NCBI GenBank assembly: GCA_937981515.1 | Contig: CALJNY010000063.1 | Span: 1 to 10,449, forward strand | Reading direction: 5' to 3' | Origin: an uncultured Collinsella sp. | GTDB taxonomy: Bacteria > Actinomycetota > Coriobacteriia > Coriobacteriales > Coriobacteriaceae | Length of the DNA: 10,449 bases | Shown here: piece after piece, positions 1-10,449 of the stretch | How positions within the stretch are numbered: position 1 is the first letter of the stretch | How the letters are laid out: each line of letters starts with the position of its first letter | Program-made: the position numbers and the translations under genes | The notes under the pieces: generated by a model | The model's database searches: none | The model's input: only the letters and a program-made list of their open reading frames with translations | What the model was told of the DNA's origin: nothing

Positions 1-575
<575 letters not shown>

Positions 576-594
576 CACATCGATAAGCAAATTG

Positions 595-641
595 AAGATC
601 CGCCCGGAAAGCATGATTGAACTGCCTTCCGGGCGGATCTT
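595..641. terminator. Bidirectional intrinsic terminator between ligA and the MATE gene
   Basis: A perfect 15-bp inverted repeat, AAGATCCGCCCGGAA (595-609) and its complement (627-641), encloses a 17-nt loop. The stem is GC-rich in the middle. On the plus strand it is followed by TTACTTTGC, a weak T-rich tail; on the minus strand by a tail starting CAATTTGCTT. It lies between convergent genes and probably serves both. The TAA stop of the minus-strand regulator remnant (640-642) overlaps its edge, so it may originally have been that gene's terminator. Confidence 0.8.
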
Positions 642-738
642 ACTTTGCTGGGGCAACCGGCACTGTGATCTGCGTCACGTAGGTCGCTGGGTCGTCGCTG
701 ATGATGTCGTCGATGAGGGCGATTTCGCGTTGCCCCGC
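640..738 (-). pseudogene. Likely 3' remnant of a regulator with a GyrI-like (AraC-type effector-binding) C-terminus
   Basis: Reading the minus strand, an open frame just beyond the MATE stop gives GQREIALIDDIIS, then DDPATY, then VTQITVPVAPAK and a TAA stop at 642-640. About 25 of 32 codons end in G or C, matching real genes in the window. The pattern of R-E-I, a D-D, D-P and then a YVTxIxxPV end is how many GyrI-like effector-binding domains finish, including those of MerR-family multidrug sensors such as BmrR relatives. I recognise this from memory and only ~30 residues remain. No start codon or DNA-binding domain is present: upstream the frame runs into the MATE 3' end and meets TGA at 756-754. 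The simplest reading is that a deletion fused the tail of a lost regulator to the end of the MATE gene. A chance GC-rich frame is the alternative. Confidence 0.5.
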
Positions 739-2084
739 TACGCCATCAGTTTGTCAAAAGCTCCGCGGCGGTTGAGTACGGTAAATGCGACAACACAGAT
801 GACTGCCGACAAAATCGATCCGCACGGCGAGGCGATACCCATGGGAAACAATGTATCGGAATAGGCGTTCGACAGCAGCCAGGCGCCGGGCACGCGAATG
901 AGCGCCACGGCCAGCACGTTGTGCGCAAAGCCGATGTAGCTCTTGCCATACGCAGCGAAAAAGCCGCTAAAGCAAATGTGGATGCCGGCAAAGATTGCGT
1001 CGAAAATGTAGCTGTGCATATAACCGGTGCCGGCGGCGACCACTGCGGGGTCCTTGGCAAAAAAGCCGATAAACGCCGGCGCCACCAGCCACATCAGCAC
1101 CGTGATCAGGCAGCCATACACTACCGAGATGGTCATGGCGTCTTTGAGCACCTGACGTGCGCGGTCGCCCTTGCCCGCGCCGGCGTTTTGCGCCGTGAGC
1201 GCGCTGACGGTGGCACCCATGGAGCTCGGCACAATGAACAAAAAGCTGATCATCTTCTCGACCAGGCCTACGGCGGCGGCGTCGACGAGTCCTCGGTGGT
1301 TGGCGATGACGGTGATAAACATAAACGCCACCTGGATGCAGCCGTCCTGCACAGCCACAGGCACGCCGATCTTAAGAATGCTGCCGAGAACCTCGGGCTG
1401 GGGGCGCAGGTCGCTGCGCTTAACGTGGATGTTCGTGCGGCGGCTCTTGAGCCACACGAGCGCGAGGGCAACGCTTGCCGTCTGGGCGGTTACCGTGCCG
1501 AGCGCCGCGCCCACGGGACCGAGCCCCATGTGGCCGATAAACAGAAAGTCGAGCGCGATGTTGATGATGCATGCCACGCCGATCACGTACATGGGCGAGC
1601 GCGAATCGCCCAGCCCGCGAAAGATGGCCGAGAGGATGTTGTATGCGGCGATAAACGGAATGCCGACAAAGCAGATACGCAGGTAGGCGGCGGTGCCTTC
1701 GACCGCCTCGGCAGGCGTGCCAATGAGCGCTACAACCTGCGGGCATAGTGCAAATAAGATGACGGCCAGCACCACCGAGATACCCATAAAGAGCGTGATG
1801 GTGTTGCCGATGGCGGTCTCGGCGCGGTCAAACCGGCGCGAACCCACGGCGTGGCCGACGATGACCGTCGTTCCCATGGCCAGGCCCACGAGCGTCACGG
1901 TAATGATGTAGAGCGTCTGCGCGCCATTGCCCACGGCGGTGATGCCGGCGGCGCCGCTAAACTGCCCCATCATGTACAGGTCGGCCATGCCGTAGAGCAT
2001 CTGTAAAAAGTACGAGAGCATATAGGGCAGGGCAAAGACCGCGATGGTCTTAAGGACATTGCCGCGTGTGAGGTCGTGTTCCAT
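738..2084 (-). CDS. MATE family multidrug efflux transporter (NorM/DinF-like)
   Basis: The 448-residue product has the usual MATE length and about twelve hydrophobic segments spread along the whole chain. It starts MEHDLTRGNVLKTIAVFALP, matching the common MATE opening (D-L-T-x-G-N-h-h-K-x-h-h-x-F-A-h-P). The stretch YGMADLYMMGQFSGAAGITAVGNGAQ fits the conserved first-helix region, and GLGDSRSPMYV fits the loop before the second bundle. MATE proteins sit in the inner membrane and export cationic drugs or metabolites using Na+ or H+ gradients; the substrate cannot be told here. I chose the ATG at 2084 from the family pattern, since no strong Shine-Dalgarno precedes it. The gene is divergent from the ABC exporter operon, with a TATAAT box about 60 bases upstream. 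Its stop at 740-738 sits directly against a regulator remnant. No frameshift is visible. Confidence 0.93.
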   Translation of the reverse strand: MEHDLTRGNVLKTIAVFALPYMLSYFLQMLYGMADLYMMGQFSGAAGITAVGNGAQTLYIITVTLVGLAMGTTVIVGHAVGSRRFDRAETAIGNTITLFMGISVVLAVILFALCPQVVALIGTPAEAVEGTAAYLRICFVGIPFIAAYNILSAIFRGLGDSRSPMYVIGVACIINIALDFLFIGHMGLGPVGAALGTVTAQTASVALALVWLKSRRTNIHVKRSDLRPQPEVLGSILKIGVPVAVQDGCIQVAFMFITVIANHRGLVDAAAVGLVEKMISFLFIVPSSMGATVSALTAQNAGAGKGDRARQVLKDAMTISVVYGCLITVLMWLVAPAFIGFFAKDPAVVAAGTGYMHSYIFDAIFAGIHICFSGFFAAYGKSYIGFAHNVLAVALIRVPGAWLLSNAYSDTLFPMGIASPCGSILSAVICVVAFTVLNRRGAFDKLMA

Positions 2085-2144
2085 GGGCGGGGCGCTTTCT
2101 GGCTTGGTTCGTTTACGTACCAGTGTAGTGAAAACCCTACAACG

Positions 2145-2150
2145 ATTATA
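2145..2150 (-). promoter_or_regulatory. Candidate -10 box for the MATE gene
   Basis: The minus strand reads TATAAT exactly at 2150-2145, about 60 bases before the MATE start codon, which would give a leader of roughly 55 nt. No good -35 is found at 16-18 bp spacing; the best is CTGCCG, three of six matches. The site may need an activator, in line with the loss of a possible MerR-type regulator nearby. That link is inference. Confidence 0.45.
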
Positions 2151-2190
2151 GAGTCAAGGTTTGTGTCGGCAGTGGGGCGAAAAAAATCGC

Positions 2191-2305
2191 GCGCGCCATT
2201 ATTCCGAGTGAATATGGACACACGTCACGAGAACTCGCCGCCGTCGCTAACCTTGCAGAAAACGATTTCGGAATACTTGACACCATTATTCGGCGCGCAA
2301 TAATA
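2191..2305. promoter_or_regulatory. Paired operator-like words in the divergent MATE/ABC intergenic region
   Basis: The 261-bp gap between the divergent MATE and ABC genes has no convincing gene. It holds two related words: GCGCGCCATTATTC at 2191-2204 and GCGCGCAATAATA at 2293-2305. CCATTATTC also recurs at 2283-2291. The second word is part of a dyad, ATTATT (2285-2290) and AATAAT (2299-2304), with 8 bases between. This dyad lies inside the ABC promoter spacer and covers its -10. The first word overlaps a smaller dyad, TATTC-N5-GAATA (2200-2214). The layout suits a repressor site controlling a drug pump, but no regulator gene is in the window. Confidence 0.35.
2277..2304 (+). promoter_or_regulatory. 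Sigma-70-type promoter of the ABC exporter operon
   Basis: A perfect -35 TTGACA (2277-2282) is followed after 16 bp by AATAAT (2299-2304), five of six matches to TATAAT. Transcription would start near 2311, leaving a leader of about 35 nt before the GTG at 2346. A six-base dyad overlaps the -10, suggesting control by occlusion. Confidence 0.6.
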
Positions 2306-2345
2306 CGTGCGTTTGCGAACAACGTTTGATGGGGGTTGAACCTGC

Positions 2346-4175
2346 GTGCGCAATCTCAAAATACTGTTTTCCTACCTAGGGGCATACCGTCGCGACGCCA
2401 TCCTCGGCGTGTTCTTTGTGTCGGTCGAGACGGTGCTCGAGCTGTTTATCCCGGTCATCATGGCCAACATCATCGATGTGGGCGTGCCTGCGGGTGATAT
2501 CAACTACATGCTGCTACAGGGCGCGTACATGTTGGTGTGCGCTGCGCTTTCGCTGGTACTGGGCTTGGGTTATGCCCGCACGTCCGCCCGCGTTGCCTCG
2601 GGCCTAGGCGCTAACCTGCGCGAGGCCGAGTACAAAAAGATTCAGACGCTCGCCTTTGGCAACCTGGACAACTACGACGCCAGCTCGCTCGTCACCCGCA
2701 TGACCACGGACATCACCGTTATCCAAAATGCTGTGGGCAACGGCTTTCGCCCTATGGTGCGCGGCCCGGTGACGCTTATCGTCGGCCTTATCTACGCGCT
2801 GATGCTGTCGCGCCCGCTCGCCACCGTCTTTGCGATCATCTTGCCCGTGCTGGCAATCGTACTGGGCGTCATCACCTATCGCGTCAGTCCGCTCTACCGC
2901 CAACTCCAGACCTCGATGGACCACCTTAACGGCGTGGTGCAAGAGGACCTTACCGCCGTGCGCGCCGTGAAGGCTTACGTGCGCGCCGAGCACGAGTGCG
3001 ACAAGTTTGACACCGTCAATACCGAGCTCGCCGGCACGGCGACCAAGACCTTCGGCACCGCCGTGCTCAACCTGCCGGTGTTTCAGCTGTCGATGTACGT
3101 GGCTGCGCTCTCCATCCTGTGGATTGGCGGCCACATGATTCTCGCCGGCAAGCTGGGCGTGGGCTCGCTCACGGGCTTTATGAGCTACGTGTTGCTGATC
3201 ATGAACTCACTCATGATGATTTCCAACGTGTTTTTGCTGCTCACGCGCGCTCTTACGAGTGTGGGCCGTATCGCCGAGGTGCTCGATGAGGAGCCCTTTA
3301 TCGCCAACCCCGCGGGAGACCTCGCGATTGCGGCGCCAGCGGACGGCAGTATCGAGTTTCGCGACGTTTCCTTTAAATACCGCGCGGATGCAGCCGAGGA
3401 TGTGCTCGAGCATATCGACCTTCGCATCGAGAGCGGCTCGACGGTGGGCATCCTCGGCGGCACGGGCTCGGGCAAGAGCTCGCTTGTGCAGCTGATTGCG
3501 CGCCTGTACGACGCCACCGAAGGCGCCGTGCTTGTGGGCGGACGCGACGTGCGCGACTACGACCTCGCGACTCTACGCGACGCCGTGGGCATTGTGCTGC
3601 AAAAGAATGTGCTGTTTACGGGTACCGTGCGCGAGAACCTGCAGTGGGGCAATCCGCAGGCGTCGGACGATGAGCTCCTCGCGGCTTGCCGCGCGGCGTG
3701 CGTGGACGAGTTCCTCGATCGCATCGGCGGGCTGGACGGCGAGTTGGGCCAAGGCGGCGCCGGTGTCTCGGGTGGCCAGAAGCAACGCCTGTGCATCGCG
3801 CGCACGCTGCTCAAGCATCCGCGCGTGCTCATTTTTGACGACTCCACCAGCGCGGTCGATATGGCGACCGACGCTAAGATTCGCGAGCACATCGCCCGGA
3901 TTTCCGATACGACCGTGCTCATCATCGCCCAGCGCATCGCGAGTGTCATGGATGCCGATCGCATTGTGGTATTGGACGACGGTCGTGTCCACGGCGTGGG
4001 CACGCACGAGGAACTGCTAGCGGGCGACAACATATACCAGGAGATTTATGCCTCGCAGATGGAGTTTGCGAGGAACGCGGACGCCGGCGCCGGCAGCGAC
4101 GATGGCTGCGCGAATGATCCGTTTTCCTCCGTCCCCGGCGGATCGCCCTTGGAAGGGGGTGAGTGCCATGCCTAA
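2346..4175 (+). CDS. ABC multidrug exporter half-transporter with degenerate ATP site (BmrC/TM287-like)
   Basis: A 609-residue TMD-NBD fusion. Residues 1 to ~310 hold six hydrophobic helices (opening LFSYLGAYRRDAILGVFF), and the nucleotide-binding domain runs from about 335 to 590. Walker A is GGTGSGKS (371-378) and the signature is VSGGQ (474-478). Walker B is VLIFDD (494-499), so the catalytic glutamate position is Asp499, and the switch histidine position is Gln529 in IIAQR. This is the known pattern of the non-catalytic partner in heterodimeric exporters such as BmrCD and TM287/288. The start is GTG at 2346: it is the first start after an in-frame TGA at 2337, and a GGGGG run at 2331-2335 acts as a modest ribosome site. 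The ~40-residue C-terminal tail is Asp/Gly/Ala-rich and not conserved in the family. The stop overlaps the partner gene by 8 nt, so the two are translationally coupled. Confidence 0.95.
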   Translation: MRNLKILFSYLGAYRRDAILGVFFVSVETVLELFIPVIMANIIDVGVPAGDINYMLLQGAYMLVCAALSLVLGLGYARTSARVASGLGANLREAEYKKIQTLAFGNLDNYDASSLVTRMTTDITVIQNAVGNGFRPMVRGPVTLIVGLIYALMLSRPLATVFAIILPVLAIVLGVITYRVSPLYRQLQTSMDHLNGVVQEDLTAVRAVKAYVRAEHECDKFDTVNTELAGTATKTFGTAVLNLPVFQLSMYVAALSILWIGGHMILAGKLGVGSLTGFMSYVLLIMNSLMMISNVFLLLTRALTSVGRIAEVLDEEPFIANPAGDLAIAAPADGSIEFRDVSFKYRADAAEDVLEHIDLRIESGSTVGILGGTGSGKSSLVQLIARLYDATEGAVLVGGRDVRDYDLATLRDAVGIVLQKNVLFTGTVRENLQWGNPQASDDELLAACRAACVDEFLDRIGGLDGELGQGGAGVSGGQKQRLCIARTLLKHPRVLIFDDSTSAVDMATDAKIREHIARISDTTVLIIAQRIASVMDADRIVVLDDGRVHGVGTHEELLAGDNIYQEIYASQMEFARNADAGAGSDDGCANDPFSSVPGGSPLEGGECHA

Positions 4176-6066
4176 GACCGCAGCCCAAGCACGCCCGGCC
4201 GACCTCAAGCGCACTGTGCGCCGCTTGCTCTCCTACATGGGGCATGCCAAGTTCTCGTTGCTCGCGGTGGGCGTGCTCGCCTCCGTCGCCGCCATCGCGA
4301 GCCTCGTCGGCACCTACATGGTGCGTCCCATCGTTAACGGTTTGGCCACGGGCGGGGAGGAACTGCTTACCAAGCAGGTCATCCTGACGGCGATCATCTA
4401 CGCCGCGGGCGTACTCTCGGCCCTGAGCTACTCTCAGATTATGGTGCGCGCGGCCCAACGCGTGGTGTCCGATATTCGCCGCGACCTGTTCGCGCACATC
4501 CAGACGCTGCCGCTCAGTTATTTTGACAGCACGCGCTCGGGCGACATCATGAGCTTTTTCACCAACGACGTCGACACCGTCTCCGAGGCGCTTAACAACA
4601 GCTTTGCCAACGTGATTCAGGCCGCCATTCAGGTTGTGGGCACCACGGCCATGCTCATCATCCTTAACTGGCAGCTCACGATTATCACACTCGTGTGCGA
4701 TGCGGCCATTGTGCTGTATGCGCGCTACTCGGGCGCGCGCTCTAAGCGTTTCTTTGCTGCCCAGCAGGCATCGCTTGGCGACCTGGACGGATATATCGAA
4801 GAAATGGTCTCGGGCCAAAAGGTCATCAAGGTCTTTAACCGTGAGGCAGCGAATGTCGCCGGCTTCACCTGCCGCAACGACGAGCTTCGCCGCACCGGTA
4901 CCGCCGCCGTGAGCTATGCCAACTCCATGGTGCCCATGACTGTCGTGATTGGCTACGTCAACTATGCCATCGTCGCCGTGGCGGGCGGCATGCTCTGCAT
5001 CAAGGGGCTCGCCGACGTAGGTGCGCTCGCGAGCTACCTGGTCTTTGTGCGCCAGGCCGCCATGCCCATCAACCAGTTTACTCAGCTCGGCAACTTCTTG
5101 CTCAACGCGTTGGCCGGTGCCGAGCGCCTGTTTGCGGCTATGGACCTTGAGCCCGAGGTGGACGAGGGCTGCGTGGAACTGGTGCAGACGGGCGATGCCG
5201 CGTGGGCGTGGAAAATTCCCGAGGGCCAGGGCGTGGGCGTCTACGGGCACCTGCATGACGTGGCAGCCGTTGATGAGTCGGGCCGCGCGGTGGCTGCCGA
5301 CGGTACCGAGCTCACGTGCGGCTTGGTTCCGCTTGCCGGCGACGTGCGCTTCCACGCCGTGGACTTTTCCTACGTGCCGGGCACCCGTGTGCTCACGGAT
5401 CTCAACCTGTTTGCCAAGCCGGGGCAAAAGATCGCGTTTGTGGGCTCGACGGGCGCCGGAAAGACGACCATCACCAACCTCATCAACCGCTTCTACGAGG
5501 TCGATGACGGCGAGATCACGTACGACGGCATCGACGTCAAGCACATAGCCAAGACCAGCCTGCGCGGGTCGCTCGGCATTGTGCTGCAGGACACGCACCT
5601 GTTTAGCGGCACCATTGCGCAGAACATCCGCTTTGGCAAGCTCGACGCGACCGGCGAGGAGGTGCGCGCCGCTGCCGAGGCCGCCTGCGCGGATTCGTTT
5701 ATCCGCCGCCTGCCGCGGGGCTACGACACACCGGTCACGGCCGACGGCGCCAACCTGTCGCAGGGCCAGCGTCAGCTGCTCGCCATCGCGCGCGTGGCCG
5801 TCGCCGATCCGCCGGTGCTCATCCTGGACGAGGCCACTTCGAGCATCGACACGCGCACCGAAAAGCTCATCGAGCGCGGTATGGACCGCATCATGCGCGG
5901 ACGCACCACCTTTATGATCGCGCACCGCCTGTCCACCGTCCGCGATGCCGACGCCATCATGGTCCTCGAACACGGCCGCATCATCGAGCGCGGCACGCAT
6001 GAAGAGCTGCTCGCCCAGCACGGCGAGTACTGGCAGCTGGCGCATGGCTTAAAAGAGCTGGATTAA
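4168..6066 (+). CDS. ABC multidrug exporter half-transporter with catalytic ATP site (BmrD/TM288-like)
   Basis: A 632-residue TMD-NBD partner of the preceding gene. I place the start at the ATG at 4168 (MPKTAAQARPADLKR). GGAAGGGGGTGAG ends four bases before it, and it overlaps the upstream stop in the usual coupled manner; the frame stays open further upstream but without a better site. Six membrane helices fill roughly residues 20-320. Walker A is GSTGAGKT (426-433). The signature is LSQGQ (530-534), with the second position Gly changed to Gln as in TM288-type subunits. Walker B is VLILDE (550-555) with catalytic Glu555, and the switch His is 586. Its Walker motifs with the partner's VSGGQ form the active site; its LSQGQ faces the partner's degenerate Walker site. 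A linker of about 60 residues (330-391) between TMD and NBD makes it longer than its partner. The likely role is drug or lipid export; the substrate is unknown. Confidence 0.95.
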   Translation: MPKTAAQARPADLKRTVRRLLSYMGHAKFSLLAVGVLASVAAIASLVGTYMVRPIVNGLATGGEELLTKQVILTAIIYAAGVLSALSYSQIMVRAAQRVVSDIRRDLFAHIQTLPLSYFDSTRSGDIMSFFTNDVDTVSEALNNSFANVIQAAIQVVGTTAMLIILNWQLTIITLVCDAAIVLYARYSGARSKRFFAAQQASLGDLDGYIEEMVSGQKVIKVFNREAANVAGFTCRNDELRRTGTAAVSYANSMVPMTVVIGYVNYAIVAVAGGMLCIKGLADVGALASYLVFVRQAAMPINQFTQLGNFLLNALAGAERLFAAMDLEPEVDEGCVELVQTGDAAWAWKIPEGQGVGVYGHLHDVAAVDESGRAVAADGTELTCGLVPLAGDVRFHAVDFSYVPGTRVLTDLNLFAKPGQKIAFVGSTGAGKTTITNLINRFYEVDDGEITYDGIDVKHIAKTSLRGSLGIVLQDTHLFSGTIAQNIRFGKLDATGEEVRAAAEAACADSFIRRLPRGYDTPVTADGANLSQGQRQLLAIARVAVADPPVLILDEATSSIDTRTEKLIERGMDRIMRGRTTFMIAHRLSTVRDADAIMVLEHGRIIERGTHEELLAQHGEYWQLAHGLKELD

Positions 6067-6115
6067 CCCGTTCGAGCACGATGCTTTGACCCCTCCGTGC
6101 CCCTCACCTCGCCTC

Positions 6116-6180
6116 AAACCATCACAACATTCGACGTTTTTTGCCAAAATCGGGAAAAGCATCGAATGTTGTGATGGTTT
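6116..6180 (+). repeat. 65-nt hairpin repeat, copy 1 (may also terminate the ABC operon)
   Basis: Perfect 19-nt arms, AAACCATCACAACATTCGA (6116-6134) and the complement (6162-6180), enclose 27 nt. After one C/A mismatch the stem can continue as about seven more pairs (G6136-C6160 through T6142-G6154), then a bulged G and two C-G pairs closing on AAAATC, so nearly the whole element folds. It lies 49 bases after the second ABC gene. Its 3' arm runs into TTTTT (6178-6182), so it could act as an intrinsic terminator. A second copy, 61 of 65 bases identical, follows the next gene. Homology stops at the element edges, as for a dispersed intergenic repeat. The rest of the 215-base gap to the next gene shows no gene. 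Confidence 0.85.
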
Positions 6181-6281
6181 TTCTGCCACTCGACCGGGCG
6201 GAATCGCTTTCTTGCGCACGAAGGTGTGCGGACCCGTGAGCAGGGGAATAAGGTTGGTTATCCGACTCCATTGGAGGGCTC

Positions 6282-7319
6282 ATGGACCTGCCGATCATCC
6301 TGTCCCATAAGACTGCCTGGCTGTACCACAACGTGGCGCGCCCGTCCGAGCCGCTCTCGCGAGCAAGCAGCCTATACGATGAGGACTCGCTTGCTAACGA
6401 GGCGGAGCCGACCGCGAGCCTGCCCAAATTGGGACTCGATGCCAAGGGGCTGAGGGCTTCAGCGGCGGTCGGGATCGTTACCGACTATCTGGTTTCGCTT
6501 GGTATTCCACGAGAAGAGCTCGATCATATCGACACGCTCGTCAACTTTGATTTTGAGCGCTCGACGCCGGCTGGATTTAGGTGCCACGTGTTTGGGGCGC
6601 CGGTACCTCCGGGCCATCTTATCGAGGTGGCAGAGGGCCTTCTGGTGGTTGATGAGGCCATGTGCTTTGTCCAGGCGGGTTCGTGGATGAGTGAGCCCGA
6701 GCAGCTGGAATATGGCTACGAAATCTGTGCCCGATACCATTTGAATCATCTGTCGACAGGCGATTATATCGAGATGGGGCAGAGGTATACCGTTGCCGAC
6801 TTGATTGCTTATTGCAATGAGAACCGATCTCGCCAGGGGGCTATACGCGCGGCCGCCGTGCTCAGGCGCGTGCACGATGGCGCGCGGTCGCCCATGGAGA
6901 CGGCCACCGCAATCATGGTCGTAGCAAAACGTTCCCAGGGAGGGCTGGGATACGCCAAGATTGAGCTCAATCATCGGGTCGATGTTCCCAGCGAGTTCAA
7001 GTATCTCGCAAAGGCCGGGTATTTCGAGATCGACGTATATGCGCCTGCGAGCGGTACGGGGATTGAATACAACGGCTCGGACCATCTTGATAAACAGCGC
7101 AGCGCGTCGGATGCGGAGCGTATGACCGTGCTGAGCGCGCTGGGCTTTAGCATGATCGTCCTCACCGGGACTCAGTTTGCCCATCAGCTGCAATTGCATC
7201 GGGCGATGAACGCCATCGCGCTCGCTATGGGCCTCAAGTGTGACCGAAGTGAGGCGTTCCAGAAACGTCAGAACGACCTGCGAGAATTTGTGATTCGACA
7301 CTGGGGCGGCGGCCTTTAG
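6282..7319 (+). CDS. Hypothetical protein with AbiEi/DUF559-like architecture and putative nuclease-fold C-terminus
   Basis: A 345-residue soluble protein with no signal peptide or membrane segment. The start ATG at 6282 follows a good GGAGG at 6273-6277. The middle part (CHVFGAPVPPGHLI..., then VDEAMCFVQAGSWM and LEYGYEICARYHL) resembles AbiEi-like proteins of actinobacteria. The C-terminal part resembles a restriction-endonuclease-like (Vsr/DUF559) core: SPMET with Glu206, FEIDVYAP with Asp251, GIEYNG with Glu262 and Asn264, then a helix and GFSMIVLTGTQF. The usual motif is EYDG, so Asn264 replaces an acid and activity is uncertain. No cognate AbiEii-type toxin gene is adjacent. Codon use differs from neighbours: by hand count about 11 of 23 arginines use CGA or AGG. 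The gene stands alone between two hairpin repeats. Function is unknown; defence, regulation or a mobile-element role are all possible. Confidence 0.75.
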   Translation: MDLPIILSHKTAWLYHNVARPSEPLSRASSLYDEDSLANEAEPTASLPKLGLDAKGLRASAAVGIVTDYLVSLGIPREELDHIDTLVNFDFERSTPAGFRCHVFGAPVPPGHLIEVAEGLLVVDEAMCFVQAGSWMSEPEQLEYGYEICARYHLNHLSTGDYIEMGQRYTVADLIAYCNENRSRQGAIRAAAVLRRVHDGARSPMETATAIMVVAKRSQGGLGYAKIELNHRVDVPSEFKYLAKAGYFEIDVYAPASGTGIEYNGSDHLDKQRSASDAERMTVLSALGFSMIVLTGTQFAHQLQLHRAMNAIALAMGLKCDRSEAFQKRQNDLREFVIRHWGGGL

Positions 7320-7357
7320 GGGCGCTTCGGTCCTTCTACGGGGTGCTGCGGGCACGC

Positions 7358-7422
7358 AAACCATCACAACATTCGACGTTTATCGCCGAAAACGGGAAAA
7401 GCATCGAATGTTGTGATGGTTT
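7358..7422 (+). repeat. 65-nt hairpin repeat, copy 2
   Basis: It is in the same orientation as copy 1, with both 19-nt arms identical (7358-7376 and 7404-7422). The four differences are all in the inner 27 nt. One turns a T-G pair into C-G (7384 with 7396). Two others create a G-C pair (7388 with 7393) closing an AAAA loop. The fourth introduces an A/A mismatch. The C/A mismatch next to the long arms (7377/7403) is kept in both copies. It starts 39 bases after the nuclease-like gene. Only TTTG follows the arm, so it is a poorer terminator than copy 1. Confidence 0.85.
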
Positions 7423-7436
7423 GTATGCTGAGGATG

Positions 7437-7455
7437 GGCTTGGGAAGCCGGTTTT
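7437..7455 (+). terminator. Weak hairpin after repeat copy 2
   Basis: GGCTT (7437-7441) pairs with AAGCC (7445-7449) around a three-base loop, followed by GGTTTTG. The short stem and interrupted T run make this only a possible terminator for the preceding gene, separating it from moaA. Confidence 0.25.
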
Positions 7456-7511
7456 GCTCGAAGTGACCCGTCCTGTCGTACGGGTGTCGGCACGATTCCC
7501 GCGTGCGGTAC

Positions 7512-7517
7512 TATATT
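7512..7517 (+). promoter_or_regulatory. Candidate -10 box for the moaA operon
   Basis: TATATT lies 38 bases before the moaA start and would give a leader of about 30 nt. No recognisable -35 is found at the right spacing. A six-base dyad, ACCCGT (7466-7471) and ACGGGT (7480-7485), lies just upstream and could bind a regulator. The 131-base stretch 7423-7554 otherwise shows no gene. Confidence 0.3.
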
Positions 7518-7542
7518 CCCTGAAGAATAAAGACCGGTGCGA

Positions 7543-7550
7543 GGGGAGGG
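7543..7550 (+). promoter_or_regulatory. moaA: Ribosome binding site that decides the moaA start
   Basis: GGGGAGGG ends four bases before the GTG at 7555. An in-frame GTG at 7537 lies upstream of this site and has no comparable signal, so 7555 is preferred. Confidence 0.6.
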
Positions 7551-7554
7551 CCGC

Positions 7555-8610
7555 GTGGACGGGCACGTGCAACATGACGGCTTTGGCCGCGATATCAACT
7601 ACCTGCGCATTGCCGTTACCGACAAGTGCAATTTCCGCTGCATTTACTGCATGCCGGCCGATGGCGTGGCGCCCCGTGCACACGACGAGCTACTCAGTGC
7701 CGAGGAAATTACCCGCTTTGTACGCTTGGTTGCGGGGGAGGGCATTCGCCGCGTGCGCCTGACGGGCGGCGAGCCGCTGGTCAGCCGCCGTATCATTCCG
7801 CTCATTCGCGACATCCGCGCGATTCCGCAGATCGAGGACATCTCGCTCACCACCAACGGCGCCCTGCTGCCCAAGCTGGCGCCGCAGCTCAAAGATGCCG
7901 GGCTTAACCGCGTTAACATCTCGCTCGACACACTCGACCCTACGCTCTTTGGAAAGATCACTCGTCTGGGTCGACTTGAGCAGACCATGGCTGGCATCGA
8001 CGCGGCGCTGGCTTGGGGCTTTGAACCCGTTAAGGTCAACTGCGTTGTGGTGCGCCGGCTCAACCAAGACGTGGCGGCCCTCGCGCGCTTGACCGTCGAC
8101 CGCCCCATCCACCTGCGCTTTATCGAATATATGCCCATTGGCGACGAGCGCACGAGCTCGCATTGCGCTGTGGACCCACATGCGCCTGCGCTCAATCCCG
8201 AGCTGTGGGACGCGAGCGATACCGTGCCGAGTGACGAGCTGCGGGCGCGCATCGATGCCGGGGTCGCCGCGGCGGGACTGGGCGAGCTCGAGCCGCTCGA
8301 CATCAACGACGCTCCTGCCGGCGCGGGCCCTGCGCGCTATTGGCACTTTCCGGGCGCGGCGGGAACGGTTGGCTTCATTAGCGCCATGTCCAACCATTTT
8401 TGTGCGAATTGCAACCGTCTGCGCCTGACGGCCGATGGCAACGTGCGTCCGTGCCTGTTCAGCGATGCCGAGTATTCGGTGCGTGAGGCGCTGCGCCGTG
8501 GTGATGATATGCAGGTACTTTCGATTTGGCGCGATGCCGTGGCCCACAAACCGCAGGAACACGCGATAATTGAGGGCACGCAACGATTTATGTCCCAAAT
8601 CGGAGGATGA
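7555..8610 (+). CDS. moaA: GTP 3',8-cyclase MoaA (radical SAM)
   Basis: MoaA converts GTP to 3',8-cyclo-7,8-dihydro-GTP, the first step of molybdenum cofactor synthesis, in the cytoplasm. The 351-residue product opens with FGRDINYLRIAVTDKC. It has the radical SAM cluster CNFRCIYC (Cys25, Cys29, Cys32), the SAM-contacting TGGEP (70-74), FIEYMPIGD mid-protein and GPARYWHFPGAAGTVGFIS before the second cluster. The C-terminal 4Fe-4S ligands are Cys283, Cys286 and Cys300 in FCANCNRLRLTADG...RPCLF. The chain ends in Gly-Gly, the tail needed for activity in this family. Length is slightly above the usual ~330 because of extra residues around 205-235. GTG at 7555 is chosen by the ribosome site and the family N-terminus. 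The moaC-mobB gene begins five bases after the stop, so they form an operon. Confidence 0.97.
   Translation: MDGHVQHDGFGRDINYLRIAVTDKCNFRCIYCMPADGVAPRAHDELLSAEEITRFVRLVAGEGIRRVRLTGGEPLVSRRIIPLIRDIRAIPQIEDISLTTNGALLPKLAPQLKDAGLNRVNISLDTLDPTLFGKITRLGRLEQTMAGIDAALAWGFEPVKVNCVVVRRLNQDVAALARLTVDRPIHLRFIEYMPIGDERTSSHCAVDPHAPALNPELWDASDTVPSDELRARIDAGVAAAGLGELEPLDINDAPAGAGPARYWHFPGAAGTVGFISAMSNHFCANCNRLRLTADGNVRPCLFSDAEYSVREALRRGDDMQVLSIWRDAVAHKPQEHAIIEGTQRFMSQIGG
8602..8607 (+). promoter_or_regulatory. Ribosome binding site for moaC-mobB, inside the moaA Gly-Gly codons
   Basis: The last two sense codons of moaA, GGA GGA, also form a near-ideal Shine-Dalgarno seven bases before the ATG at 8615. This supports 8615 over in-frame starts further upstream and indicates translational coupling. 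Confidence 0.75.
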
Positions 8611-8614
8611 TCAT

Positions 8615-9919
8615 ATGGCCAAGAGCAGGTACGCCGATGCCACCAAGGCCGCTCGCAGGGTCGCGATGTCTGCCCACAAAGTCACGGCTGCGGCGAATGC
8701 CGGTAACGCCGACACGTCTGCGCAGCCGACTGCCAGCGCTGCCACCGAGTCCACCCGTGACGCCCGTCGCGACGAGCTGACGCACGTGGACGCCAAGGGC
8801 GAGGTACGCATGGTCGACGTGTCCGACAAGGCCGAGACCCATCGCATCGCCATCGCCGAGGGCACCATCCTCATGCATCCCGAGACGCAGGCCATGGTGC
8901 TGCAAGACCGCGCCAAAAAGGGCGACGTGCTCGCTTGCGCGCGCGTGGCGGGCATTATGGCCATTAAACGCACGAGCGACATCATCCCCATGTGCCATCC
9001 GTTGCTCATTACCAAGAGCAAGTGCGACATTGCGCCCATCGCTGCGGCGGGGACGCCGGCCGAGGACGTGCCCGAGGGCTGGGCACCGGCGCGCGCGGAC
9101 GGACAGGTTGGCTTTCACGTACTGGTTACGGCGGGCGTGACGGGCAAGACGGGTATCGAGATGGAGGCCCTGACCGGCGCGAGCGCTGCGTGCCTAACGA
9201 TCTATGACATGTGCAAGGCGGTCGATCGCGGCATGGAGATCGTCGACGTGCGCCTTCTGCACAAGGAGGGCGGCCGCTCGGGCGTGTGGGATCGTGCAGA
9301 GCGTCAGGCCGCTGTCGTCGAGTCCGTGGCCGCTGACGGTGCCGCGCCCGCAAGCGCACCCATCGCCGTCGCGCCCGCAGCTCCGGCACCGGCCGTCCCC
9401 GCGATCGCGTTTATCGGCTACCAGAACTCGGGTAAGACCACGCTCGTCGAGAAGGTTATCGCCGAGCTCACCCGCCGCGGCCTGCGTGTGGGCTCGCTCA
9501 AGCATCACGGGCACCACGGCTTTGATATCGACGTGCCCGCTAAGGACACCTGGCGCCATCACCAGGCCGGATCCAAGCACGTGGGCCTTATCTGCGCCAC
9601 GCGCTGGGCGGAGTACGCCGACACGCGCGAGGAGGACGAGATACCCGCGCGCGAGCTGCTGTCGCGTTACAACGATGTCGACGTGGTGATCATCGAGGGC
9701 TACAAGACCGAGGGCTTCGACAACATCGTGGTCGCGCGATCGGGTGTCGACCGTCTGCGCGGCAAGAGCTCGCTCGACCTGGTCGACGGCCGCACGCTGG
9801 CCCTTGCCTGCAATGAGGCCCTGGCGCGTCAGGCCTTCGACGCCGGCCTTGCGACCCGAGCCATCAACATCAACGACGCCCGAGCCATCTGCGATCTTAT
9901 CCAAGACCATCTGGCCTAA
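8615..9919 (+). CDS. MoaC-MobB fusion: cyclic pyranopterin monophosphate synthase with MobB-type GTPase domain
   Basis: A 434-residue fusion. Residues 1-53 are an Ala/Thr/Ser-rich extension of unknown role. MoaC spans about 54-226, from LTHVDAKGEVRMVDVS to LLHKEGGRSGVWDR, with family-conserved residues in PMCHPL (His128), EMEALTG (Glu182, Glu184) and YDMCKA (Asp198, Lys201). It should convert MoaA's product to cyclic pyranopterin monophosphate. An Ala/Pro linker (about 236-262) follows, then a MobB domain with P-loop GYQNSGKTT (268-276), the SLKHHGHH stretch and VVIIEGYKTEG. MobB proteins bind GTP and assist MobA in forming the guanine dinucleotide cofactor. The ATG at 8615 is preferred because of the ribosome site at 8602-8607. 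The linker and both domains are in one continuous frame. The stop overlaps the first terminator hairpin. Confidence 0.95.
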   Translation: MAKSRYADATKAARRVAMSAHKVTAAANAGNADTSAQPTASAATESTRDARRDELTHVDAKGEVRMVDVSDKAETHRIAIAEGTILMHPETQAMVLQDRAKKGDVLACARVAGIMAIKRTSDIIPMCHPLLITKSKCDIAPIAAAGTPAEDVPEGWAPARADGQVGFHVLVTAGVTGKTGIEMEALTGASAACLTIYDMCKAVDRGMEIVDVRLLHKEGGRSGVWDRAERQAAVVESVAADGAAPASAPIAVAPAAPAPAVPAIAFIGYQNSGKTTLVEKVIAELTRRGLRVGSLKHHGHHGFDIDVPAKDTWRHHQAGSKHVGLICATRWAEYADTREEDEIPARELLSRYNDVDVVIIEGYKTEGFDNIVVARSGVDRLRGKSSLDLVDGRTLALACNEALARQAFDAGLATRAININDARAICDLIQDHLA

Positions 9920-9958
9920 AACCTGCCAAAAAGGGACAGGTTTATTTTGGCAGGTTTT
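9918..9958 (+). terminator. First intrinsic terminator after moaC-mobB
   Basis: AAAACCTGCCAAAA (9918-9931) pairs perfectly with TTTTGGCAGGTTTT (9945-9958) around 13 nt. The final T4 run is part of the stem and is followed by ATC. The left arm begins inside the TAA stop codon. A competing shorter hairpin, AAACCTG (9919-9925) with CAGGTTT (9937-9943), uses the same left arm. Confidence 0.75.
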
Positions 9959-9977
9959 ATCTGGGCAAACGTCACTT

Positions 9978-10015
9978 CCACCACAAAGGGGCCAGGCACC
10001 TTTGTGGTGGTTTTT
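9978..10015 (+). terminator. Second intrinsic terminator of the moa operon
   Basis: CCACCACAAAGG (9978-9989) pairs perfectly with CCTTTGTGGTGG (9999-10010) around a 9-nt loop and is followed directly by TTTTT (10011-10015). This is a textbook plus-strand terminator. It may belong to a repeated intergenic hairpin family; only a genome search would tell. Confidence 0.85.
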
Positions 10016-10042
10016 GCTTTAGTACATGTGTGGGACATGCCT

Positions 10043-10048
10043 TACAAT
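10043..10048 (+). promoter_or_regulatory. Candidate -10 box of the MFS gene
   Basis: TACAAT, five of six matches to consensus, lies about 137 bases before the MFS start. The best -35 is TTAGTA (10019-10024) with an 18-bp spacer, three of six matches. Starting here, the transcript would carry a leader of about 130 nt. Confidence 0.35.
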
Positions 10049-10094
10049 CTACCAAGTAGTTCATGACGGGCGAAAAACGGAGAGAAGGGGCTTG

Positions 10095-10173
10095 ATGCGT
10101 CCTTAATGTTTCATGCGGACAGATTGATTTGACAGACGGTGGCGAATGCCCGCCGTCCGCATTCGTATGAAAC
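10095..10173 (+). promoter_or_regulatory. Structured 5' leader upstream of the MFS gene
   Basis: GTTTCAT (10108-10114) can pair with ATGAAAC (10167-10173), and ATGCGGAC (10113-10120) with GTCCGCAT (10155-10162). A separate inner hairpin, GACGGTGG (10135-10142) with CCGCCGTC (10150-10157), shares bases 10155-10157 with the outer pairing, so the two compete. A third option pairs ATGCG (10095-10099) with CGCAT (10158-10162). The AAGGAG ribosome site (10174-10179) starts at the next base after the outer stem, so folding could affect initiation. I do not recognise a known riboswitch class. An operator dyad is the alternative. Confidence 0.45.
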
Positions 10174-10184
10174 AAGGAGTCTCC

Positions 10185-10449
10185 ATGCTCGCCTCTCTTT
10201 TCTCAAAGCCTCAATCATCGCTGTCCGTGCAGGCCAAGCGCCTGGTGGCGATGCGCTTTTTCATCTACACCGGTTTTCAGACCAGCTACTTTATCGGCGT
10301 CATCGGAACGCTCACCTATGCAGACGATGCCTCGGTCGTGGCGACATCGCTGGCCGTCCTGTTTATGAACGTCTTTGTGATCTTGGGATCCTTTGCGGGT
10401 GGCGCGGCGCTCGACGCCTGGGGCCCGCGCCGTCATTTCTTGCTGAGCA
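10185..10449 (+). CDS. MFS transporter, N-terminal part (3' end outside window)
   Basis: The ATG at 10185 follows AAGGAG (10174-10179) at five-base spacing. The 88 complete codons give MLASLFSKPQSSLSVQAKRL, a short cytoplasmic start. A first helix region (VAMRFFIYTGFQTSYFIGVIG) and a second (SVVATSLAVLFMNVFVILGSF) follow, then AGGAALDAWGPRRHF. That last stretch matches the loop 2-3 motif A of the major facilitator superfamily (G-x-x-x-D-x-x-G-x-R-R). The substrate cannot be judged from this part. The gene has its own leader after a double terminator, so it is probably not part of the moa operon. Confidence 0.85.
   Translation, partial: MLASLFSKPQSSLSVQAKRLVAMRFFIYTGFQTSYFIGVIGTLTYADDASVVATSLAVLFMNVFVILGSFAGGAALDAWGPRRHFLLS

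Follow-up and report, generated by a model that had tools for sequence, protein, structure and literature searches.

A predicted AbiEi-Vsr-like nuclease gene of Collinsella between two copies of a 65-nt hairpin: a possible RAYT-REPIN-like partnership in an unrelated protein family

A 10,449-nt stretch of DNA from an uncultured Collinsella sp. (GenBank assembly GCA_937981515.1, contig CALJNY010000063.1, positions 1 to 10,449; hereafter the window) carries a single gene for a 345-amino-acid (aa) protein between two nearly identical 65-nt hairpins, termed H1. This layout raises the question of whether protein and hairpins belong together, as RAYT proteins do with their repetitive extragenic palindromic (REP) elements, or share this locus by accident. 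We consider it somewhat probable (roughly 55%) that they form a RAYT-REPIN-like partnership in which the enzyme is an unrelated nuclease and the natural target of each protein of the family would be its own palindromic element. The features concerned are the following.

6116 to 6180, no strand: hairpin 1 (H1), a 65-nt near-palindrome of fixed length with outer arms perfect over 19 bp
6282 to 7319, plus strand: gene of the 345-aa protein, candidate cognate nuclease (open reading frame, orthologues, ratio of nonsynonymous to synonymous substitution rates (dN/dS), Pfam and predicted fold)
7358 to 7422, no strand: hairpin 2 (H1), matching hairpin 1 at 61 of 65 bases in the same orientation

Of 39 related genomes, 32 encode homologues of the 345-aa protein. 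A total of 42 homologue loci, chosen by protein similarity with their flanks disregarded, were examined, 20 of them having been picked from the list before the flanks were known and the others being those extracted by the search tool. At each locus, the 400 bp to the left was aligned with the 400 bp to the right in direct and inverted orientation, and clustering at 60% identity reduced the loci to 31 groups. Left and right flanks were similar with a score of at least 17 in 17 of the 31 groups and of at least 22 in 14 of them. Control genes were drawn from a single genome, G040, in which a score of at least 17 was reached by 42 of 1434 genes of at least 200 aa and by 19 of 279 genes with long gaps on both sides (16 of 275 after removal of family members). 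Even when the group from which the finding arose is set aside, flanking repeats are enriched at the homologues (16 of 30 groups versus the control, Fisher p 1e-9). When flanks of different homologues of one genome were compared across loci, scores of at least 17 were obtained in only 2 of 38 cases and of at least 22 in none of 38, while own flanks in the same comparison gave 16 and 14 of 24, respectively. The repeats are thus specific to a single locus or paralogue.

These numbers bear on a first alternative, in which ordinary miniature inverted-repeat transposable elements or REP repeats are moved by some other transposase and the genes are frequent landing places or lie in variable islands. 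G040 is indeed rich in hairpin families (on its chromosome, 551 hairpins have arms of at least 11), some of them around unrelated genes, and it encodes a protein that we take to be a RAYT-like transposase. However, such repeats would not be expected to differ between paralogues while standing on both sides of each, and the cross-locus comparison found no case at the higher score. The computed chance of placement on both sides is about 1e-5 to 6e-5 per gene at the copy numbers seen. We therefore regard this explanation as rather unlikely.

The relatives of the window gene provide further examples. A 335-aa paralogue (38% identical, G010-type) has 65-nt hairpins, H2, on either side at 8 of 8 loci, inverted at seven and direct at one, and the sequence of H2 is unrelated to that of H1. 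G026 contains 55 occurrences of a 28-base palindrome, including copies on both sides of the homologue, and 20 neighbour spacings of 115-118 bp are found among 50 listed. In G002, 35 half-sites give rise to 16 inverted pairs with spacings of 146, 155-156 or 165-166 bp, in steps of about one helical turn; the homologue has copies on either side, and the start of its longest reading overlaps with the right-hand copy. G036 contains six inverted pairs at 93-94 bp, one of which is located on each side of the homologue. In all three genomes, the repeats are short and dispersed and carry two inverted ends whose spacing is nearly constant. The three copies of a repeat in G016 (L226) are all located at the gene, and in G040 two distant relatives, of 340 and 364 aa, each lie between members of a hairpin family, with 22 and 39 copies, respectively. 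Profile comparison of the two families gave an E-value of 1.3e-5, and the top fold matches of both are I-Bth0305I and Vsr (predicted structures). The first-pass annotation of the window had suggested a REP/RAYT-like unit whose protein would belong to a different family, calling the link between protein and hairpin an inference; with flanking repeats present at relatives too, this link is now better supported.

The gene itself proved genuine. Its orthologues are 85-98% identical, the frame is intact in most genomes carrying the gene, and the median dN/dS of the window gene versus 17 orthologues is 0.125; judging from sequence comparison, the gene is under purifying selection. At one of 19 compared loci (L067, genome G011), the frame is broken into two parts. 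The arginine codons are unusual, as noticed earlier: CGA, CGG, AGA and AGG account for 61% of the 23 arginine codons, compared with 3-12% in the MATE gene, moaA and the two ABC genes; in moaC-mobB they make up 5 of 32. RAYT genes are marked by evolution much faster than that of their neighbours. Here, the identity of the gene is lower than the average of its neighbours at 13 of 18 loci, with a gene mean of 95.5% versus 95.1-98.3% for the neighbours. By this measure the gene does not appear to be generally fast-evolving, the allele of genome G004 being the sole outlier.

The modelled structure of the protein predicts an AbiEi-like N-terminal half and a Vsr/I-Bth0305I-like nuclease domain, with the Vsr-type fold spanning residues 201-318. 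The AbiEi/DUF559-like architecture and the nuclease fold expected by the first-pass annotation are thus backed by the predicted fold, while Pfam support for the window protein is weak: MTES_1575 (E 0.0083) and DUF559 (E 0.13) do not reach the cut-off, the latter (PF04480) scoring 12.5 bits against a gathering cut-off of 20.6. Residues E206, D251, E262, H268 and D277 are unchanged across 17 sequences and may represent the EDxHD motif. Foldseek returned no significant match, which is no evidence for a new fold, and neither the PADLOC search for defence systems nor the NCBIfam search gave a match. A phage or virus origin was rejected: phages gave no match, and none of 31 pattern matches in viral contigs was confirmed. 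With the Vsr, DUF559 and MTES_1575 proteins the window protein shares the predicted fold of residues 201-318, and two relatives, P0091 (28.1) and P0102 (23.7), pass the DUF559 cut-off; it differs from them in its additional N-terminal half and in the association with its own repeats. In addition, no methyltransferase was seen beside the gene in the window. In contrast to AbiEi of the AbiE type IV toxin-antitoxin system, the AbiEi-like half is here fused to a nuclease, and no AbiEii nucleotidyltransferase toxin adjoins the gene in the window, its neighbours being an ABC transporter and moaA (PADLOC, no match).

The two same-orientation palindromes around the gene are likewise real. They differ at 4 of 65 bases and are spaced 1242 nt from start to start. 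Their placement had been described correctly, although the gaps given as 102 and 39 bp were each too large by one: 101 bp separate hairpin 1 from the ATG at 6282, and 38 bp separate the stop at 7319 from hairpin 2. Folded as single-stranded DNA, the hairpins reach -22.6 and -23.8 kcal/mol, whereas shuffled sequences average -6.8 and -6.9, respectively (z -8.2 and -8.9), and none of 200 shuffles was equally good for either. A T run follows hairpin 1, whereas hairpin 2 has none, and an Rfam scan of the window gave no match at the gathering score.

The source of the window belongs to the aerofaciens group of Collinsella, and the nearest compared genome has 42% of the window's words. A 55-base fixed-spacing pattern, allowing up to 3 mismatches, detected H1 in 22 of 43 genomes of the genus with 1-6 copies apiece; the pattern read backwards detected none. 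The complete chromosome of G040 contains exactly five copies, on which half-site search and BLAST agree: two at the gene, two others within 21 kb and one distant. This number ruled out H1 as a dispersed REP. A role as origin, terminus or segregation site was also rejected, because the H1 positions (1.608 Mb and 2.19-2.22 Mb) bear no sensible relation to the extremes of cumulative GC skew (about 1.763 and 0.674 Mb). Six kinds of H1 site were read. All are intergenic, most often with a stop codon shortly ahead of the site and the next start following at a distance of tens to about 190 bp. They lie between ABC and the 345-aa gene, between this gene and moaA, between MFS and a HAD hydrolase, between sortase and gatC, and two at a second locus (gene names lacking a Pfam test are readings of translations).

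Sites soon after stop codons, the T run after hairpin 1 and the occurrence of other repeated terminator-like hairpins in the window and in G040 would suit transcription terminators of the neighbouring genes. We nevertheless hold this to be highly improbable, since arm sequence and fixed length are conserved even between unrelated genes, the inner sequence is reversed at sites 3 and 4 relative to sites 1 and 2, the T run is missing at hairpin 2, and terminators would not account for paralogue-specific flanks.

Both hairpins accompany the gene at 20 of 21 gene-bearing loci examined; in the sole exception, G044, what appears to be an insertion-sequence end has taken the place of the left arm of hairpin 1. 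The first-pass annotation had named hairpins at hundreds of sites, genes mostly free of them or a structure without a nuclease fold as outcomes that would speak against it; what was found instead were few hairpins (five in G040, two of them at the gene), this near-constant co-occurrence and a predicted nuclease fold. G010 and G012 lack the two ABC genes together with the gene and the two hairpins, the junction on the right coinciding with the edge of hairpin 2, and in G005 the upstream synteny breaks within one base of hairpin 1. As separate observations, about 1.5 kb of insertion-sequence-like DNA lies between gene and hairpin 2 in G024 (L075, 10243-11800), and both ABC transporter genes are absent upstream of the gene at L055, L056, L058, L059 and L067, with differing junctions.

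In the G004 allele, the gene is 84.9% identical, compared with 96-98% for the neighbours (ABC 97-98%, MoaA 97.7%), and its hairpins at the gene have changed at 18 and 20 of 65 positions, largely alike, the stem being kept by paired changes; the H1 copies away from the gene retain the usual arms. Stem-preserving paired changes in diverged alleles affect pairs 6-60, 9-57 and 15-51, while in G043 the change is confined to hairpin 1. The repeats could be operators through which the AbiEi-like half controls its own gene and a handful of others, with the nuclease serving, for example, defence. The AbiEi-like predicted fold, the intergenic sites at short distance before starts and the low copy number per genome are consistent with this. 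However, copies also lie downstream of the gene, the elements are numerous in G026 and G002, and a change of both gene-flanking hairpins while the other copies kept their arms is unexpected for a shared operator, which makes this explanation unlikely.

The clean empty site anticipated by the first-pass annotation exists in one genome: gene-less G007 has the left flank, a single hairpin and the right flank. A free-standing homing endonuclease cassette would account for it if the single-hairpin allele were cut and repair copied the hairpin-gene-hairpin unit in, and such a cassette would also agree with the nearest fold, the catalytic domain of the homing endonuclease I-Bth0305I, and with the far greater divergence of gene and hairpins than of neighbours in G004. 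Against this, the intact sites flanking the gene ought to be cut as well, the G010-type copies are mostly inverted, and dispersed copies elsewhere are left without explanation; simple deletion also accounts for the empty site. We judge a homing cassette quite improbable. The G007 site is equally explained by loss via recombination between the two direct copies. Together with the recurrence of H1 sites at the same neighbours, this means that cargo moved with flanking repeats, another earlier suggestion, is not supported as such.

Returning to the RAYT-REPIN-like partnership, we propose that the protein would combine an AbiEi-like (winged-helix type) DNA-recognition half with a nuclease of Vsr/EDxHD type, and that its target would be the 65-bp hairpin on either side of its own gene. 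A dimer placed on the two inverted arms may nick or cut the element, and repair or annealing between copies could then result in spread, upkeep or loss of the element and of the gene between two copies. Each relative would have an element of its own, the family acting like RAYT with REPINs. Movement of the elements by these nucleases would go one step beyond acting on them.

PMC2817692 and PMC3116915 describe RAYT/REPIN systems as having palindromes on the flanks of the gene, repeats in the form of inverted doublets, a single cognate family for each gene, and joint change. Here, too, the gene lies between its own palindromes (H1 at 20/21 loci, H2 at 8/8, 17/31 groups), the palindrome is dispersed as inverted pairs for three homologues (G026, G002, G036), each paralogue has a separate palindrome, and flanking repeats change jointly and stay palindromic. 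Because this trait set is shared, the nucleases probably act on their own elements. The systems differ in the enzyme, RAYT being a Y1 HUH (IS200/IS605-like) transposase, whereas the present protein joins an AbiEi-like half to a predicted nuclease of Vsr/EDxHD type. They also differ in the low copy number of the window's own family (five) and in orientation, since flanking copies are here direct (H1) or inverted, whereas RAYT-flanking repeats are always inverted according to PMC2817692. I-Bth0305I, as described in PMC3943268, dimerises on a target of nearly 60 bp, which is close to the 57-65 bp of the element here; in contrast, the present gene lies outside a phage intron and between two intact sites, and its N-terminal half is AbiEi-like.

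Several results weigh against active movement within the partnership. Matching flanks are missing in 14 of the 31 homologue groups. H1 sites keep the same neighbours in different strains, and these fixed positions speak for slow or ended movement. In RAYT systems, repeat abundance correlates with presence of the cognate gene. Here, the G026, G002 and G036 elements were absent from 4, 3 and 3 other genomes searched, respectively, whereas H2 occurs in the same 22 of 43 genomes as H1 and the 335-aa gene in 9 of 43; the H2 copies beyond two at the gene number 3.3 where the gene is present versus 3.0 where it is absent (p 0.37).

Outside RAYT lineages, the origin of most short bacterial palindromic repeats is unexplained. 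If the partnership is true, a second enzyme fold would be able to drive REP-like repeats, and a gene family labelled DUF559 or unknown would gain a testable substrate, namely the element flanking each gene. It would also explain the presence of several unrelated hairpin families per Collinsella chromosome, with one resident gene each. More tentatively, and with somewhat less than even confidence, we suggest that the REP-element way of life was invented a second time and independently in Coriobacteriia, where each winged-helix/AbiEi + Vsr-EDxHD paralogue would be bound to and spread its own element and all together would account for the large hairpin-repeat families of these gut bacteria. In a literature search that covered few subscription papers, no paper among those listed joined DUF559 or Vsr-like nucleases with REP-like repeats.

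Some minor observations concern related repeats and records. A 1785-bp record, 'plasmid 11', carrying a distant homologue was considered as an excised circle and rejected; one of its ends matches an IS21 element, and it is taken as an assembly fragment. NZ_OY725717.1 and NZ_OY725722.1, labelled plasmids of C. aerofaciens TSDC17.2-1.1, resemble chromosome pieces, with 900 kb of housekeeping genes and 1.8 kb with an IS21 element at the end. The homologue flanks in G026 and G036 (L026, L027, L223, L229) contain differing elements with a common inner hairpin bearing CGAGAAGAAC or a near variant, the genomes concerned belonging to two families of the order. On contig C1 of G040, two members of a hairpin family that numbers 11 copies enclose the gene of a Fic protein (Pfam Fic E 2e-18; 1923786-1924970, L185), which is possibly the resident gene of another repeat family, of a different kind. 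A 263-aa protein at 759716-760507 of the same contig has similar flanks (score 45); this is presumably a RAYT-type transposase, Pfam having been run on a 94-aa piece only. Finally, the window contains long terminator-like hairpins at 9920-10015 and 595-641; in G040, 48 places carry the CCACCACAAAGG type of terminator-like hairpin, and the AACCTGCC type recurs too.
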